Shown here piece by piece: positions 35,470 through 40,873 of a stretch of 55,382 nucleotides of DNA. Source of the DNA: an uncultured Pseudoxanthomonas sp. (lineage in GTDB: Bacteria; Pseudomonadota; Gammaproteobacteria; Xanthomonadales; Xanthomonadaceae); contig NZ_CAMPJD010000026.1 in assembly GCF_946886695.1 (NCBI RefSeq), forward strand, positions 1 to 55,382. Direction: 5' to 3'. The position numbers were made by a program, and so were the translations under genes. Below the pieces are notes generated by a model. The model was given only the letters and a program-made list of their open reading frames with translations. It made no database searches and was not told the origin of the DNA. Within the stretch, counting starts at the first letter, position 1; each line of letters opens with the position of its first letter.

Positions 35470-35910
35470 ATGAGCGCCGATGCCCACCTGATCGCCTGCC
35501 CGCACTGCGCGGCGATGAACCGTGTGCCGCCGGCGCGGCTGGTCGAGACGCCCAACTGCGGGCGCTGCCACCATCCCTTGTTCACCGGCCTGCCGCTGGC
35601 GCTGGGCGAGGCGGACTTCGACCGGCACGCCCTGCGCAGTACGCTGCCGTTGCTGGTGGATTTCTGGGCGCCGTGGTGCGGGCCTTGCCTGCAGATGGCC
35701 CCGCATTTCCAGCAGGCGGCGGGCGTGCTGGAGCCCGCGATGCGGCTGGCCAAGGTGGACACGGAAGCCTGCCCGGGGCTGGGCAACCGCTTCGGCATCC
35801 GCAGCATCCCGACGATGGTGCTGCTGCAGGGTGGCCGCGAGCTCGCCCGGCAGAGCGGGGCGATGTCGGCGGAGGGGATCGTAAGGTGGGCGCGCGGGGT
35901 GGCGGGATGA
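35470..35910 (+). CDS. trxC: Thioredoxin 2 (TrxC), zinc-containing
   Basis: 146 aa. An N-terminal zinc finger (C10-x2-C13 and C30-x2-C33) precedes a thioredoxin domain with active site WCGPC (69-73) and the cis-Pro region IRSIPTMVLLQGG. This layout is that of TrxC, a cytoplasmic disulfide reductase that helps in oxidative stress. It starts 32 bp after the M24 gene; co-transcription is possible. The C-terminal ends VRWARGVAG. Confidence 0.94.
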   Translation: MSADAHLIACPHCAAMNRVPPARLVETPNCGRCHHPLFTGLPLALGEADFDRHALRSTLPLLVDFWAPWCGPCLQMAPHFQQAAGVLEPAMRLAKVDTEACPGLGNRFGIRSIPTMVLLQGGRELARQSGAMSAEGIVRWARGVAG

Positions 35911-35991
35911 GGTTGCCAAGGGCACGCAAGCGCGGTGCTGTGCTCCCCGCGGGCGCTACGCGATGATCAAGAATCCTGCGGTGGTCGCGGC

Positions 35992-36540
35992 ATGACGCTG
36001 CCGATTCTTGAAACAGGGCGCTTTCATTTGCGACCTCTGCTTGAGAAGGACCAGGCCTTGTACGTTTCCATTTACACGAACGAAGCGTTGATGCGCTTCG
36101 TGGGCGAGCCAATGGAATCCGGGGACGCAGTACGCGCGTTCAGCGCGTTTCTTCGTTCCAATCGGCATGGTGACCTTCGGCGAGCTTGTTGTTGGGTTAT
36201 CGAACACGACGGTCCGACGCGGGAAGCAGTCGGACTTCTGGCGTTGATTCCCCATCCCGAGGCCGCTGAAATTGGAGTGATGGTTCTGCAGGCTTGGCAG
36301 GGTCGCAAGGTTGCCCAGGACGTCATCGGGTTCCTTTCCGGTCATGTGTTCCAGGACGAGAGTTGGACACGGACCTTCAGCCGACATCTGCGCGAGAACG
36401 AAGCAGGTGCCGGCGTGATGCGCAGGCTGGGATTCCGGGAGATGGAGGATGTTCCCGGTGGCGCGCGGTTTCGAGGGTGGGAGATGGCGCGCGAGGAGTG
36501 GAAGGAGCGCCACTCGGTGGCGCCGCTGTACGGCACATGA
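35992..36540 (+). CDS. GNAT N-acetyltransferase (RimJ/RimL-like), first gene of the borosin block
   Basis: 182 aa from ATG 35992. It opens with the RimJ/RimL pattern LPILETGRFHLRPLLEKD; the acetyl-CoA region fits IGVMVLQAWQGRKVAQDVIG and the C-terminal strand fits GVMRRLGFREME. The gene ends 17 bp before the methyltransferase, so they are almost certainly one operon. In that context it could acetylate the N-terminus or a side chain of the peptide product, or confer self-protection; both are inference. By eye the base composition is less GC-rich from here to about 37750. The Shine-Dalgarno is weak. Confidence 0.85.
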   Translation: MTLPILETGRFHLRPLLEKDQALYVSIYTNEALMRFVGEPMESGDAVRAFSAFLRSNRHGDLRRACCWVIEHDGPTREAVGLLALIPHPEAAEIGVMVLQAWQGRKVAQDVIGFLSGHVFQDESWTRTFSRHLRENEAGAGVMRRLGFREMEDVPGGARFRGWEMAREEWKERHSVAPLYGT

Positions 36541-36557
36541 TGGGGCAGGAGGAAGCA

Positions 36558-37340
36558 ATGACAGGAAGGGGTACGCTCGCATGCGTGGGCGTAGGAATGA
36601 CGTTGGGAGCGCACCTTGCGCCGCGCGCGCGGAGCCATATCGAACAGGCCGATGTGGTCTTCAGTGCCATGTCGGATCCGATCGTGGAGCTTTGGGTCCA
36701 AGGCATGAACCGGGACGTCAGGAGCCTGCAGCCGCTCTACGCCGAAGGGAAGCCGCGTCGCGAGACCTATCGCGAGATGGTGGAGTTGATGATGACAGAG
36801 GTCCGCCAAGGGCGCCGCGTATGCGGGGCCTTCTATGGTCATCCAGGGGTCTTTGCTCAGGTGCCGCACCAAGCGCTGGCGAAAGCGCGTGCGGAAGGTT
36901 ACGAGGCTGTCATGGAGGCCGCTGTTTCTGCTGAGGATTGCCTCTATGCGGACCTGGGCATCGATCCTGGCGCCTTCGGTTGTCAGCATTTTGAAGCCAG
37001 CCAGTTCATGTTCTATCAGCGCAGAGTCGATCCTTCCGCCTACTTGGTCCTTTGGCAGATCGGTGTGGCCGGTGACCTGACGACGGGACGCCTGTCCACG
37101 GATGCCGGAGCAAAGCAGTTGCTGGTGGATCTGCTGCTTGACGACTACCCGCCGGACCATGGAGTTGTCGCCTATGAAGCCGCGACCCTGCCCATTGCCT
37201 CCCCTCGCATTGACCGGCTGCCGCTCGATCGGCTGCCTACGGCCCCCCTGTCGGCCGCGACCACGCTGGTAATACCTCCTGCCATGCCCTTACGCCGTAA
37301 CGAGCGCGTGCTGGAGCAACTCCGTCGCATGGCGCGGTGA
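36558..37340 (+). CDS. Borosin-type peptide backbone alpha-N-methyltransferase (split borosin, SonM/OphMA-like)
   Basis: 260 aa with AGGAGG just upstream. The fold is tetrapyrrole methylase (TP-methylase): SAM-binding start LACVGVGMTLG (7-17) and AFYGHPGVFAQVPHQAL (91-107). Y61, R67 and Y71 have exactly the 6- and 4-residue spacing of the catalytic Y66, R72 and Y76 of the fungal borosin enzyme OphMA. ISAEDCLFADLG-like sequence (VSAEDCLYADLG, 123-134) and GCQHFEASQF (141-150) match bacterial borosin enzymes rather than cobalamin or DiPH methylases. It should add methyls to backbone amides of the separate precursor encoded 138 bp downstream. The substrate is in trans, unlike OphMA, where it is fused. 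Confidence 0.88.
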   Translation: MTGRGTLACVGVGMTLGAHLAPRARSHIEQADVVFSAMSDPIVELWVQGMNRDVRSLQPLYAEGKPRRETYREMVELMMTEVRQGRRVCGAFYGHPGVFAQVPHQALAKARAEGYEAVMEAAVSAEDCLYADLGIDPGAFGCQHFEASQFMFYQRRVDPSAYLVLWQIGVAGDLTTGRLSTDAGAKQLLVDLLLDDYPPDHGVVAYEAATLPIASPRIDRLPLDRLPTAPLSAATTLVIPPAMPLRRNERVLEQLRRMAR

Positions 37341-37355
37341 CGCATGGTGGGTCGG

Positions 37356-37378
37356 CAATGGTCATGGCAAGACCATTG
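37356..37378 (+). promoter_or_regulatory. Stem-loop between borosin methyltransferase and precursor genes
   Basis: CAATGGTC (37356-37363) and GACCATTG (37371-37378) are perfect complements with a 7-nt loop, starting 15 bp after the methyltransferase stop. Only AAAAG follows, so it is not an obvious terminator. It could set the ratio of enzyme to precursor by RNA processing or stabilise the downstream transcript, or be an operator. Confidence 0.45.
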
Positions 37379-37478
37379 AAAAGTGGGTATTGTCCCGGAC
37401 GGGGGCAGCTTTTGCCGGCCTGTCGGGCCCGGTAGCGGCTGCGGAAGTGCCGAATTTCATCAAAATTGGGGAAACAGC

Positions 37479-37754
37479 GTGTCCAATGCAATCCGCTTTC
37501 TGGAATCCATGGGGGCGTCCGATTCGCTGCGTGCGGCATCGGACTATGAGGCGGCGGTGAGGGCGCTCGATGTCGAGTCGGCCCAACAGACTGCGCTGCT
37601 CGACCGTGATTCGGCTTCACTTGCGGGGCTATTGCTCGCCCGTCCGACGATGTTCTGCATGATCCTGGCTCCGGACGAGGGCAAGGAAGACGAATTGCCC
37701 GACCAGGCCGACGAGCAGACGGATGGAGACGAGGACCACGGAGAAAAAGAGTAG
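37479..37754 (+). CDS. Split-borosin RiPP precursor peptide
   Basis: 91 aa from GTG 37479, with GGGGA 7-11 nt upstream. Residues 1-55 look helical (NAIRFLESMGASDSLRAA, YEAAVRALDVESAQQTALL), like the leader/borosin-binding domain of SonA-type precursors. A short hydrophobic strand MFCMILAP (58-65) is the likely methylated core. The tail from 66 is extremely acidic (26 residues, mostly Asp/Glu). A longer frame from 37383 is open but unlike any leader. The gene follows the methyltransferase by 138 bp. The exact core boundaries and methylated residues cannot be read from sequence. Confidence 0.8.
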   Translation: MSNAIRFLESMGASDSLRAASDYEAAVRALDVESAQQTALLDRDSASLAGLLLARPTMFCMILAPDEGKEDELPDQADEQTDGDEDHGEKE

Positions 37755-37760
37755 GCTCCG

Positions 37761-37775
37761 GGAGCGCTTTGCTCC
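37761..37775 (+). promoter_or_regulatory. Small hairpin between precursor gene and TPR-GGDEF gene
   Basis: GGAGC (37761-37765) and GCTCC (37771-37775) pair over a 5-nt loop, with partial extension by flanking CCG/GG. No T-run follows. It may attenuate read-through from the borosin genes into the next gene. Confidence 0.3.
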
Positions 37776-37803
37776 GGCTGCATCGGCTGATCGGGAGAAG
37801 GAC

Positions 37804-39621
37804 ATGAGACTCGGGAAAGGACGTACCTTGTGGTTGGCAGCTGTGCTGGCGTGCGTTCTCGCCGCGCCGGTCCAGGCACAGGTTTCACCCGGCATCGATG
37901 CGCTGATCGAACAGGCGGAGGCGATCAAGACGTCGCAGCCCGCCAAGTTCTATGATGTGTTGGAACGTCTCGAAAAGCGTGTAGAGGACGCCACACCTGA
38001 GCAACGCCTCAAGCTGAGGCTGCTCCGGGCGCATGGTTTCCTGATGAAGGGCAGGGCGGAGCCCGCAATACGCGAGCTCCGCCAGATCCAGCAGGAAACC
38101 GACGATCCGGAGATGCTGTTCTGGACAGGCTCGCTGCTGGTCAACACCTACGCGCTGACGCGTAAATTCGAGCAGGGGCTGACGACCCTCAACGACATCC
38201 TCCCGCTTGCCACCAAGGTGGAGAAGAAAGACGTCCGTCACCGTGGCCTTCTGGTCGCGGGTCTGCTGTACAACCAGGTAGGGGAGTACATGCTCGGCGA
38301 GCAGTACGCCAACCAGGTCCTGGCAGACGCGCCCGATGGACGCAACCAGTGCGCCGCCGGCAACCTGGTTGCCGAAGCGGCATTAGGACTGAAGAAAGCA
38401 CCCTCCGAGGAAATGATCTTCCGCACGATCAAGGTTTGCGAGGATCAGAAGGAACCTATCCTGGGTGGGTTGACGCGCACGTACTTGGCGCGGAAATGGG
38501 TGGAGGACGGCAAAGTCGATCAGGCGATCGAATTGCTGGAGCGCTACCTCCCCACCGTGACGGCTACGGGCTACCCCTTGGTCATCAGTGAATACCACGC
38601 CATGCTGGCCAGCATGTACCTGAAGCTGGGCGATATCGGCACGGCGCAGGCGCACGCCAACGAAGCTGTGGAGCGAGGGGTGGGCATGACATCGCTGCCG
38701 CTCGTGGTGGCATACAAGACACTTTACGAAATCGCCGAGTCGCGTGGTGATTCCAAGGCGGCGTTGTCGCGCTACCGGCAGTACGCCGACGCCGACAAGG
38801 CATACCTCAACGACGTAAAGACGCGCCAGCTGGCTTATCAGATCGTTCGCCAGCAGATACTCCAGAAGACCCAGCAGATCAGCATGCTGGACCAGGAAAA
38901 CCAGGTCCTGCAGTTGCAGCGCACGGTCGACCAGCAGGCCGCGCAGAATACGCGGCTGATCGTCATCCTGCTGGTGCTGCTGGTCGCCTCCATCGGCTAC
39001 TGGGCGTTCAAGATCAAGCGCGTGCAGCTGTCGCTGAAGAAGATGGCCGAAACCGATGCGCTGACCGGCATCTGCAACCGCCACCACTTCACCCTGCGTG
39101 CCGAGCGCGCGCTGGCCGAGTGTGCCCGCAATGGCGAGCAGGCCGCGCTGATCATGTTCGACCTCGACCACTTCAAGAACATCAACGACCGTTTCGGCCA
39201 TGGCACCGGCGACTGGGCGCTCAAGGAAGTGGCTGAAGCCAGCAAGGGCTTCTGCCGCCGCATTGACGTACTCGGCCGCCTGGGTGGCGAGGAGTTCGCC
39301 ATCCTCATGTACGGTTGCGATCTGCGCGCTGCTGCCCGCGTGGCTGAAGACTGCCGCGTCCGCCTGGCGCAGATCGAGACCCGCGAGACCGGGCATGTCT
39401 TCGCCATCACCGGCAGTTTCGGGGTGACCTCCAGCATGCAGTCCGGCTACAGCCTGGCCAAGCTGCTGTCGCACGCCGACAAACAGCTGTACCGCGCCAA
39501 GCACCTGGGCCGCAACCGCGTCTGCGTGCACGAGAACGAACACGAGAACGTGCGTGCCGCCGGCAGCAACGTGCTGGAACTGCCGCAGCGCGAGGGCCGC
39601 ACGGAACACCTTGGCGCCTGA
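37804..39621 (+). CDS. Diguanylate cyclase with periplasmic TPR domain
   Basis: 605 aa from ATG 37804 (GGAGAAGG upstream). Sec signal (RTLWLAAVLACVLAAPVQA), a TPR-like helical sensor (about 30-370), a coiled segment LDQENQVLQLQRTVDQQ, one membrane span (about 385-404) and a cytoplasmic GGDEF domain. The active site is GGEEF (494-498) and an inhibitory I-site R485-x2-D488 is present, so it should make c-di-GMP with product feedback. It begins 49 bp after the borosin precursor and may share its transcript, though it could equally have its own promoter. Confidence 0.9.
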   Translation: MRLGKGRTLWLAAVLACVLAAPVQAQVSPGIDALIEQAEAIKTSQPAKFYDVLERLEKRVEDATPEQRLKLRLLRAHGFLMKGRAEPAIRELRQIQQETDDPEMLFWTGSLLVNTYALTRKFEQGLTTLNDILPLATKVEKKDVRHRGLLVAGLLYNQVGEYMLGEQYANQVLADAPDGRNQCAAGNLVAEAALGLKKAPSEEMIFRTIKVCEDQKEPILGGLTRTYLARKWVEDGKVDQAIELLERYLPTVTATGYPLVISEYHAMLASMYLKLGDIGTAQAHANEAVERGVGMTSLPLVVAYKTLYEIAESRGDSKAALSRYRQYADADKAYLNDVKTRQLAYQIVRQQILQKTQQISMLDQENQVLQLQRTVDQQAAQNTRLIVILLVLLVASIGYWAFKIKRVQLSLKKMAETDALTGICNRHHFTLRAERALAECARNGEQAALIMFDLDHFKNINDRFGHGTGDWALKEVAEASKGFCRRIDVLGRLGGEEFAILMYGCDLRAAARVAEDCRVRLAQIETRETGHVFAITGSFGVTSSMQSGYSLAKLLSHADKQLYRAKHLGRNRVCVHENEHENVRAAGSNVLELPQREGRTEHLGA

Positions 39622-39640: not shown

Positions 39641-40729
39641 TCAGCGTGTCGCGAGGGCGGGCTGCGGCCCTTCATGGAGGGCCAACTGGTTGCGCCCGCT
39701 GCTCTTTGCCCGGTAGAGCGCCCGGTCGGCCGTTTCCAGCCAGGCCCGCAAGCCGGCTGTCGCAGCGTCCGCGCTCGCCAATCCCAGGCTCACCGTGTGT
39801 CGCAGGTCCGGCGCGGACTGCACCCGCAAGGCCTCCACGCCTGTCCGGATGCGTTGCGCGACGATCTCCGCTGCCACCAGGTCGGTTCCGCGCAGCAGGA
39901 CGGCGAACTCGTCGCCACCCAGCCGGCCCGCGCAGTCCTGCCCGCGGATGCTGTGGCGGATCACCTCGGCGGTCGCGCGCAGCACGTCATCACCCACCGC
40001 GTGGCCGTGACGGTCGTTGATCGCCTTGAAGTGGTCGATGTCGATCATCATGAGTGTCGCGGGTTCTCCGGTCACGGCGCACTGGTCCAGCAACAGCGTG
40101 GCCTGTTCCTGCCAGTGCCGGCGGCTGTCCAGTCCCGTCAACGTATCGCGCCGGCTCAGTTCGTCCAGCAGGCGGTTCTGCCGCTTCACCTTGCGGACCA
40201 GATGATAGCTGGCCTGGCTGACCGCGATGGAGTGGATCAGCAGCATCGGCAGGCATGCCAGCATTACCGGCATGCTGGTGGCCGGACGCAGCTCGAATCC
40301 CGTTACCGCCCCGGCCACCAACGCGCCGGCCAGCATCAACGGAAGCGACCAGTACCAGAGACGATCGATGCCGGTGCTGATCTTGTCGACCGTGGCCAGC
40401 GTCACCAGCAGCACGCTGGGGAGCAGGTTGAATGCCATCAGCGGCACCCACATGCCGGCTAGCAGGGAATCGAACAGCAGGTTGCGGATCTCGCCCCGAA
40501 AAGGCATGGGATGGCGCAACGACAGCCATAGCGCGAGTTGCGGCCACACCACGGCGGTGAAGACCAGCCATGCCCACGTGCCCCAGGCGGCATTGTTCTC
40601 CAGCAGGACAGTCCCCACCGGCAACGCAGCCAGACCCATCCCCAGCATGCGCAGCCGGTAGATCCGGCGCGGCAATCGCTGGCTCTGGCGCGCCGGATCG
40701 GCGCCGGAAAGCGGTGCGGTGAACGGCAT
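39641..40729 (-). CDS. MASE2-type membrane diguanylate cyclase (AdrA/DgcC-like)
   Basis: 362 aa from ATG 40729. The N-terminal MASE2 region (about 20-180) has RRIYRLRMLGMGLAALPVG and several hydrophobic spans; a coiled linker (VRKVKRQNRLLDELSRRD) leads to the GGDEF domain with GGDEF at 271-275 and I-site R262-x2-D265. DgcC/AdrA enzymes make c-di-GMP that activates cellulose synthesis in enterics; the output here is unknown. The gene is convergent with the other cyclase, with stops 19 bp apart. The frame is open about 35 codons further upstream, but MASE2 similarity begins after this ATG. Confidence 0.9.
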   Translation of the reverse strand: MPFTAPLSGADPARQSQRLPRRIYRLRMLGMGLAALPVGTVLLENNAAWGTWAWLVFTAVVWPQLALWLSLRHPMPFRGEIRNLLFDSLLAGMWVPLMAFNLLPSVLLVTLATVDKISTGIDRLWYWSLPLMLAGALVAGAVTGFELRPATSMPVMLACLPMLLIHSIAVSQASYHLVRKVKRQNRLLDELSRRDTLTGLDSRRHWQEQATLLLDQCAVTGEPATLMMIDIDHFKAINDRHGHAVGDDVLRATAEVIRHSIRGQDCAGRLGGDEFAVLLRGTDLVAAEIVAQRIRTGVEALRVQSAPDLRHTVSLGLASADAATAGLRAWLETADRALYRAKSSGRNQLALHEGPQPALATR

Positions 40730-40873
40730 TGGCGCGTGGAGTCCCCTTGCTCGTGACGGCCATTCCCGGTGCACCGGGGGCAGGCGGAGTGTAGGCCAAA
40801 CCGTGACGCTGGGCACGTCACGGAGCTCTGCCAACGACAGCGGCCCCGGTCGGGAAATCTTGAGGCGGTGTCG

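Follow-up and report, generated by a model that had tools for sequence, protein, structure and literature searches.

Introduction

The closest described system is the type IV borosin pair SonM/SonA of Shewanella oneidensis which, in the available sections of PMC8429565, consists of a stand-alone methyltransferase and a separate precursor with a borosin-binding leader. Residues Y58, R67, Y71 and Y93 of SonM were mutated in that study, and L63 and I65 are the methylated sites of SonA according to the available part of PMC11285071. The same sections of PMC8429565 report that the fungal borosins fuse enzyme, leader and core in one polypeptide and that backbone methylation favours membrane permeability. 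A GGDEF-containing domain is listed among the architecture elements in the Figure 1 legend of PMC11395268, which covers borosin types 0–XI, and the available text of that paper cites Imani 2022, Lee 2024 and Cho 2022 for types V–X and 0, a literature in which a TPR-GGDEF neighbour has possibly been mentioned earlier. The terms cyclase, receptor and signal are absent from the available main text of PMC11395268, as are GGDEF, cyclase and tetratricopeptide from that of PMC8429565, and the covered portions of the borosin literature assign no biological function to the bacterial split forms.

A second point of comparison is the ComQXP system of Bacillus, in which a modifying enzyme, a small precursor and a receptor are encoded side by side (available sections of PMC4008528 and PMC4408185). 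As described in the available sections of PMC4008528, ComQXP varies most in the active peptide and strongly in the N-terminal part of the receptor, the cytoplasmic part being conserved, and the exit route of the peptide is not known. Here we describe a locus that is predicted to combine the chemistry of the first system with the arrangement of the second. It lies in a stretch of 55,382 nucleotides from an uncultured Pseudoxanthomonas sp. (NZ_CAMPJD010000026.1), analysed as a whole and referred to below as the window.

Results

A stand-alone methyltransferase of the split-borosin family

The frame at 36558–37340 (+) encodes a 260 aa protein free of internal stops. A first-pass annotation had read in it Y61, R67 and Y71 together with the motifs YGHPGVF, SAEDCLYADLG and GCQHFEASQF, all of which are present in the translation, and had taken it for the enzyme of a split borosin, describing the 6- and 4-residue spacing of the three residues as that of OphMA. 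Among solved structures the best match is indeed SonM (E 2e-74), aligned over residues 5–255 with 126 identities in 251 aligned residues, followed by the fungal borosins OphMA, dbOphM and MroMA1 (E 1.7e-51 to 5.7e-44). Y61, R67, Y71 and Y93 of the window protein align with SonM Y58, R67, Y71 and Y93, respectively, so that the four examined active-site residues are shared, and their equivalents are conserved in 86 of 86 aligned loci, the window counted. The enzyme carries neither a clasp nor a core, the precursor being encoded by a separate gene, which sets the pair apart from the fused fungal proteins.

Pfam names the general fold only (TP_methylase, cut-off met), as it would if the enzyme were a tetrapyrrole-type methylase standing next to an unrelated small gene. 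We give this explanation a negligible probability: the solved-structure matches are SonM and the fungal borosins, and a tetrapyrrole identity is rejected on the NCBIfam models, with YabN scoring 37.6 bits against a cut-off of 525 and two precorrin models scoring 11–12 bits against cut-offs of 302–391. The comparison with OphMA and SonM on one side and precorrin methylases on the other, which the first-pass annotation had proposed as a check, has therefore come out on the borosin side. Methyltransferase matches were found in 36 of 61 related genomes, which argues against a chance frame; the nearest named relatives are from Pseudoxanthomonas (92% identity), in line with a probable origin of the window in that genus, and in a phylum-wide sample 5 of 200 genomes have the enzyme. 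Judged by its sequence, the product of 36558–37340 is a split-borosin methyltransferase with a predicted alpha-N-methylating activity.

A separate precursor with a SonA-like leader

Downstream lies the 91 aa gene with a GTG start that had also been pointed out at first pass, at 37479–37754 (+). A longer frame of 123 aa begins at 37383, but GTG at 37479 is the likelier start because 10 of 17 homologues share the same MSN start, while five start further in and two are longer. The predicted hydrophobic core, MFCMILAP (residues 58–65; 37650–37673), is retained in 16 of the 17 homologues and reads MYCLVVAP in the remaining and most distant one, so the precursor is not a chance frame. It follows a leader of 55 residues (37479–37643) and precedes an acidic tail (residues 66–91; 37674–37751); in 68 of 86 relatives the net charge of the last 22 precursor residues is no higher than −3. 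An iterated profile recovers a gene with the same leader in 109 of 120 loci (the window and 119 others, duplicates included), and the peptide gene is thus conserved in relatives, as would be expected of a genuine precursor.

Searches of the PDB with the single precursor sequence gave no meaningful match, and a profile of close homologues did not find SonA. With a profile of 23 varied precursors the best seven matches are SonA entries (E 1e-4 to 5e-4), all over the leader; by this wider profile the leader covers SonA residues 1–55 (E 1e-4) and resembles its borosin-binding domain. An hhalign comparison with ten SonA orthologues reached 97.4% probability and aligned the predicted core with that of SonA, placing C60 and I62 opposite L63 and I65. 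We infer from this register that C60 and I62 are the methylation sites here, and the strain would make a backbone-methylated peptide, as first proposed.

The core is conserved within one class of relatives (class A) and varies between classes, class B having MMCMIWAP, and it contains a cysteine in 53 of 86 loci. Loci from Rhodanobacter, Dyella and Frateuria (L114, L115, L117, L118, L121, L124 and others) have the same leader with a polar core of the type VPQITNAPGHEE in place of a hydrophobic one. The L159 precursor apparently has two core-like segments, and that of L168 contains a repeated GGDKDEEEIR unit. Enzyme and precursor are new members of the known split-borosin family, and they differ from SonM/SonA in the 91 aa precursor, whose core is internal and followed by a long acidic tail, in the core sequence and in an acetyltransferase gene upstream.

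A TPR-GGDEF membrane protein and an acetyltransferase flank the pair

Two further genes fall outside the coordinates of the first-pass annotation and alter the likely function of the cluster. The upstream one, at 35935–36540 (+), encodes a GNAT acetyltransferase (Acetyltransf_3, Pfam E 7e-17), an accessory member of the cassette that may cap the peptide; such a gene is found near the methyltransferase in 60 of 156 distinct loci and never in 1,087,562 bases of far flank. The downstream gene, at 37804–39621 (+), encodes a predicted membrane sensor of 605 aa that we propose as a receptor on the basis of Pfam, hydropathy and locus linkage. It shows a signal peptide by eye, a putative periplasmic TPR-like sensing domain (residues 27–384; 37882–38955), a hydrophobic stretch at about residues 379–405 that is followed by positive residues and holds the predicted transmembrane helix (about residues 385–404; 38956–39015), and a GGDEF domain (39046–39519; Pfam E 2e-41) displaying a GGEEF motif with an RxxD upstream of it. 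The TPR matches of the window protein stay under the Pfam cut-offs, while the sensors of two relatives pass the cut-off of TPR_12. The outer part contains two cysteines, C183 and C212, that are present in all 86 of 86 loci, as would fit an oxidising periplasm. Enzyme, precursor and membrane sensor thus stand side by side, as in ComQXP.

In L038, L039, L044, L049 and L051 the precursor is followed by a tandem pair of TPR-GGDEF genes, which might encode two receptors for the same peptide. A second GGDEF gene of the window, at 39641–40834 (−), is arranged tail to tail with the first one and is retained in syntenic relatives. It was rejected as a member of the exchanged block described below, as it evolves with the flanks (93% identity to locus L048, against 28–64% for the GNAT protein, methyltransferase, precursor and TPR domain).

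The TPR sensor gene accompanies the methyltransferase across loci

We read 39 loci in relatives (36 genomes out of 61), the 80 best of 143 named loci, eight loci of a class-wide sample in which 10 of 369 genomes had a match, and 40 selected loci of an order-wide sample around genome G409, in which 62 of 247 genomes had one. Removal of 11 duplicates leaves 156 distinct loci. With a TPR-sensor profile at a threshold of E 1e-10, a same-strand sensor gene was found near the methyltransferase in 38/39, 67/70, 2/8 and 34/39 loci of these sets, 141 of 156 altogether, the last two counts alone being independent, since the first two sets had served to build the profile. The same profile has no match in 658,203 bases of far flank. 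The output of the sensor is mostly a GGDEF domain and sometimes a histidine kinase, the TPR part being retained; in the class-wide set, L180 has a TPR hybrid kinase and L179 one sensor of each kind. The linkage extends to the SonM type: among ten loci with SonM orthologues (67–93% identity), all from one genus that is presumably Shewanella and not including the S. oneidensis locus itself, nine have a TPR-GGDEF gene directly downstream and the tenth, L223, a TPR protein without GGDEF.

Fifteen of the 156 loci have no TPR-sensor gene at this threshold, among them L164 and L252, whose contigs end too early. Also among the fifteen, L235 and L255 have sensors that Pfam identifies as TPR histidine kinases, the TPR-GGDEF gene of L240 is on the opposite strand, and the six class-wide loci without a nearby sensor (L181–L186) hold distant methyltransferases at 27–42% identity. 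L138 and L170 have methyltransferase and precursor with no TPR sensor nearby, and both precursors are without the acidic tail.

Stand-alone TPR proteins without an output domain occur in L231 and L242, as might be expected if the peptide were an antagonist whose producers must retain a matching TPR protein for sensing or immunity, in the manner of bacteriocin-immunity pairs. The hydrophobic core would suit such a function, and retention of matched partners would give the same joint exchange as described below. Most TPR proteins nevertheless keep a signalling output, which immunity does not need, and a search of the four cassette proteins against the PADLOC anti-phage defence library gave no match at E 1e-3. 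We consider antagonism very improbable.

In L065–L067 the methyltransferase is fused behind the GGDEF domain in a single frame of 840–848 residues, in which Pfam recognises TPR, GGDEF and TP_methylase (L065). A SonA-like precursor lies upstream of the fusion in L066 and L067, and none was found in L065. The fusion would fit a peptide that stays in the cell, with methyltransferase, precursor and cyclase forming a complex at the cytoplasmic side of the membrane and the precursor or its methylation state tuning the cyclase; a cassette without a visible exporter would fit it as well. We regard this arrangement as quite improbable, given that the core, across 15 syntenic loci, goes with the TPR domain in the periplasm and not with the GGDEF domain in the cytoplasm (see below).

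Sensor and methyltransferase are also absent together. Among 25 relatives without the methyltransferase, 13 belong to the same genus, and at E 1e-40 a TPR-GGDEF match is absent from all 13 of these and present in 3 of 3 controls; shared ancestry may explain part of this co-absence. Eight stretches carrying the thioredoxin-like flank gene, from seven of the 13 genomes, contain this gene (65–70% identity) as the only one among the query genes, so that no syntenic empty site can be read from them.

Part of the cassette has been exchanged as a block between related species

Nucleotide identity between the window and L048 is 96–98% up to about 35,850, falls to 41–73% through the GNAT, methyltransferase, precursor and TPR regions, and returns to 85–97% from about 38,850, a boundary that falls within the sensor gene just ahead of the membrane helix. 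At the protein level the flanks are 93–98% identical and the GGDEF domain 99%, against 28% for the GNAT protein, 64% for the methyltransferase, 45% for the precursor and 44% for the TPR domain. L048 instead matches L046 in precursor (84%), TPR domain (86%) and methyltransferase (82%). The limits of the block are similar in five pairs, namely window/L048 and four others with similar flanks, and between L041 and L037 the position of the GNAT gene has changed as well. The G+C content of the block (about 35880–38850) is 61–63%, compared with 70–73% upstream and 66–68% downstream.

Topology tests point the same way. In AU tests, for which the tree groups were named after the data had been seen, the group that the flanks support, the window with L031, L032 and L048, is rejected by the TPR data (p 7e-79), and a group of L046 and L048 by the flank data (p 6e-40); pairing L036 with L042 (0.001) or L037 with L041 (0.0006) is likewise rejected by the TPR data. 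Between Rhodanobacter loci L143 and L150 the precursor and the TPR domain display the block pattern, the methyltransferase being 77% identical. No such pattern was seen among SonM-type loci, where all parts have diverged. At the level of sequence, these comparisons show that the gene set has been exchanged as a block between related species, the outer part of the sensor included and its output domain left in place.

The predicted core co-varies with the sensing domain

We asked which parts of the cassette vary together in 15 syntenic loci with both flanks conserved, drawn from the window and the 39 loci of relatives (window, L031–L037, L040–L043, L045, L046 and L048). In rank Mantel tests, whose permutations treat species as exchangeable, the correlation of the core is 0.57 with the TPR domain (0 of 4999 permutations), 0.45 with the leader (4), 0.21 with the acetyltransferase (276), 0.18 with the GGDEF domain (287), 0.18 with the methyltransferase (461) and 0.14 with the flanks (334). 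When flanks and GGDEF domain are taken into account, the strict 8-residue core still correlates with the TPR domain at 0.69 (0/4999), while the core given flanks and TPR domain correlates with the GGDEF domain at 0.11 (878/4999) and with the methyltransferase at −0.07 (3454/4999). Partial correlations of the other parts with the TPR domain are 0.57 for the tail (0), 0.34 for the methyltransferase (11), 0.30 for the acetyltransferase (35) and 0.22 for the leader (107). Reducing each tight TPR class to a single locus (n = 8) leaves the core at 0.69 (5/1999) and the tail at 0.58 (4), with the leader at −0.06, the methyltransferase at −0.01 and the acetyltransferase at −0.19. Four core classes, named after the data had been seen, need three changes on the TPR tree, which is the minimum, six on the flank tree and five on the methyltransferase tree.

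Peptide and sensing domain thus co-vary around a conserved output domain in the 15 syntenic loci, and the picture is not clear-cut in wider sets. Across 86 loci the core tracks both the TPR domain (partial 0.28) and the GGDEF domain (0.18, 0/999), so that the TPR domain is not singled out, and across 22 loci the correlation with the GGDEF domain (0.47) exceeds that with the TPR domain (0.36); in these sets all parts have a common ancestry and the core aligns poorly across types. Whole-precursor identity in the 15 loci follows the thioredoxin flank (0.42) more than the TPR domain (0.26), and L159 and L160 share 92% identity in the TPR domain while their cores differ. Within the syntenic set, the correlations and tree comparisons show, for the predicted core, joint inheritance with the TPR domain.

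These data bear on the possibility that the locus makes an ordinary split-borosin natural product, with the TPR-GGDEF protein sensing some other cue, for instance an environmental one, that controls production, and travelling with the cluster because it is adjacent. Adjacency by itself yields joint exchange, and physical linkage alone would join precursor and TPR domain, since their genes are neighbours. The acidic tail tracks the TPR domain in the same way as the core, so that either the recognised part extends past the core or physical linkage contributes, and in the wider sets the core tracks the GGDEF domain too. Against this, the core follows the TPR domain far more closely than does the leader encoded by the same gene (0.69 against 0.22), the sensor persists when the output switches to a histidine kinase, and the linkage reaches the SonM/SonA type. 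We therefore hold this explanation to be unlikely, although it is the one among the alternatives that deserves most weight.

Discussion

As related species exchange the peptide and the outer part of the sensor together, a likely role of the peptide is that of a signal to this sensor. We consider it reasonably probable that the peptide is a pheromone and the TPR-GGDEF cyclase its receptor. In the pathway that we infer, the methyltransferase would bind the precursor leader and methylate backbone amides in MFCMILAP (C60 and I62 by the SonA register); the leader and the acidic tail would be cleaved off by a protease, and a cap may be added by the acetyltransferase. The product, hydrophobic and methylated, would then exit the cell and bind the periplasmic TPR domain of the producer's own or a neighbour's cyclase, and this binding would shift c-di-GMP output. 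No dedicated exporter or protease was seen in the cassette; permeability gained by methylation might, as a conjecture, explain the absence of an exporter.

The variation of core and TPR domain around a conserved output resembles the pherotype pattern of ComQXP. The systems differ in their parts: ComQXP uses an isoprenyl transferase (ComQ) and a histidine kinase (ComP), and the window encodes a methyltransferase and a TPR cyclase with a predicted signalling role. Among the open-licence papers covered, one mentions borosins together with GGDEF and none mentions them together with a diguanylate cyclase, and the signalling reading was not found. More broadly, the chances seem to us evenly balanced that gammaproteobacterial borosins form a class of Gram-negative peptide pheromones, that is, ribosomal peptides with methylated backbones, perhaps self-permeant, with periplasmic TPR receptors, exchangeable outputs (c-di-GMP synthesis or histidine kinase) and pherotypes arising by joint exchange of enzyme, peptide and sensing domain.

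The linked TPR sensor and its co-variation with the core name a candidate receptor and predict peptide-receptor pairings. If the pheromone reading is true, these loci would add bacterial signals of a new chemical class, give c-di-GMP a peptide input in Gram-negative bacteria and provide natural sets of methylated peptides with their matching receptors. The broader reading would also assign a function to bacterial split borosins, the relatives of SonM/SonA included.
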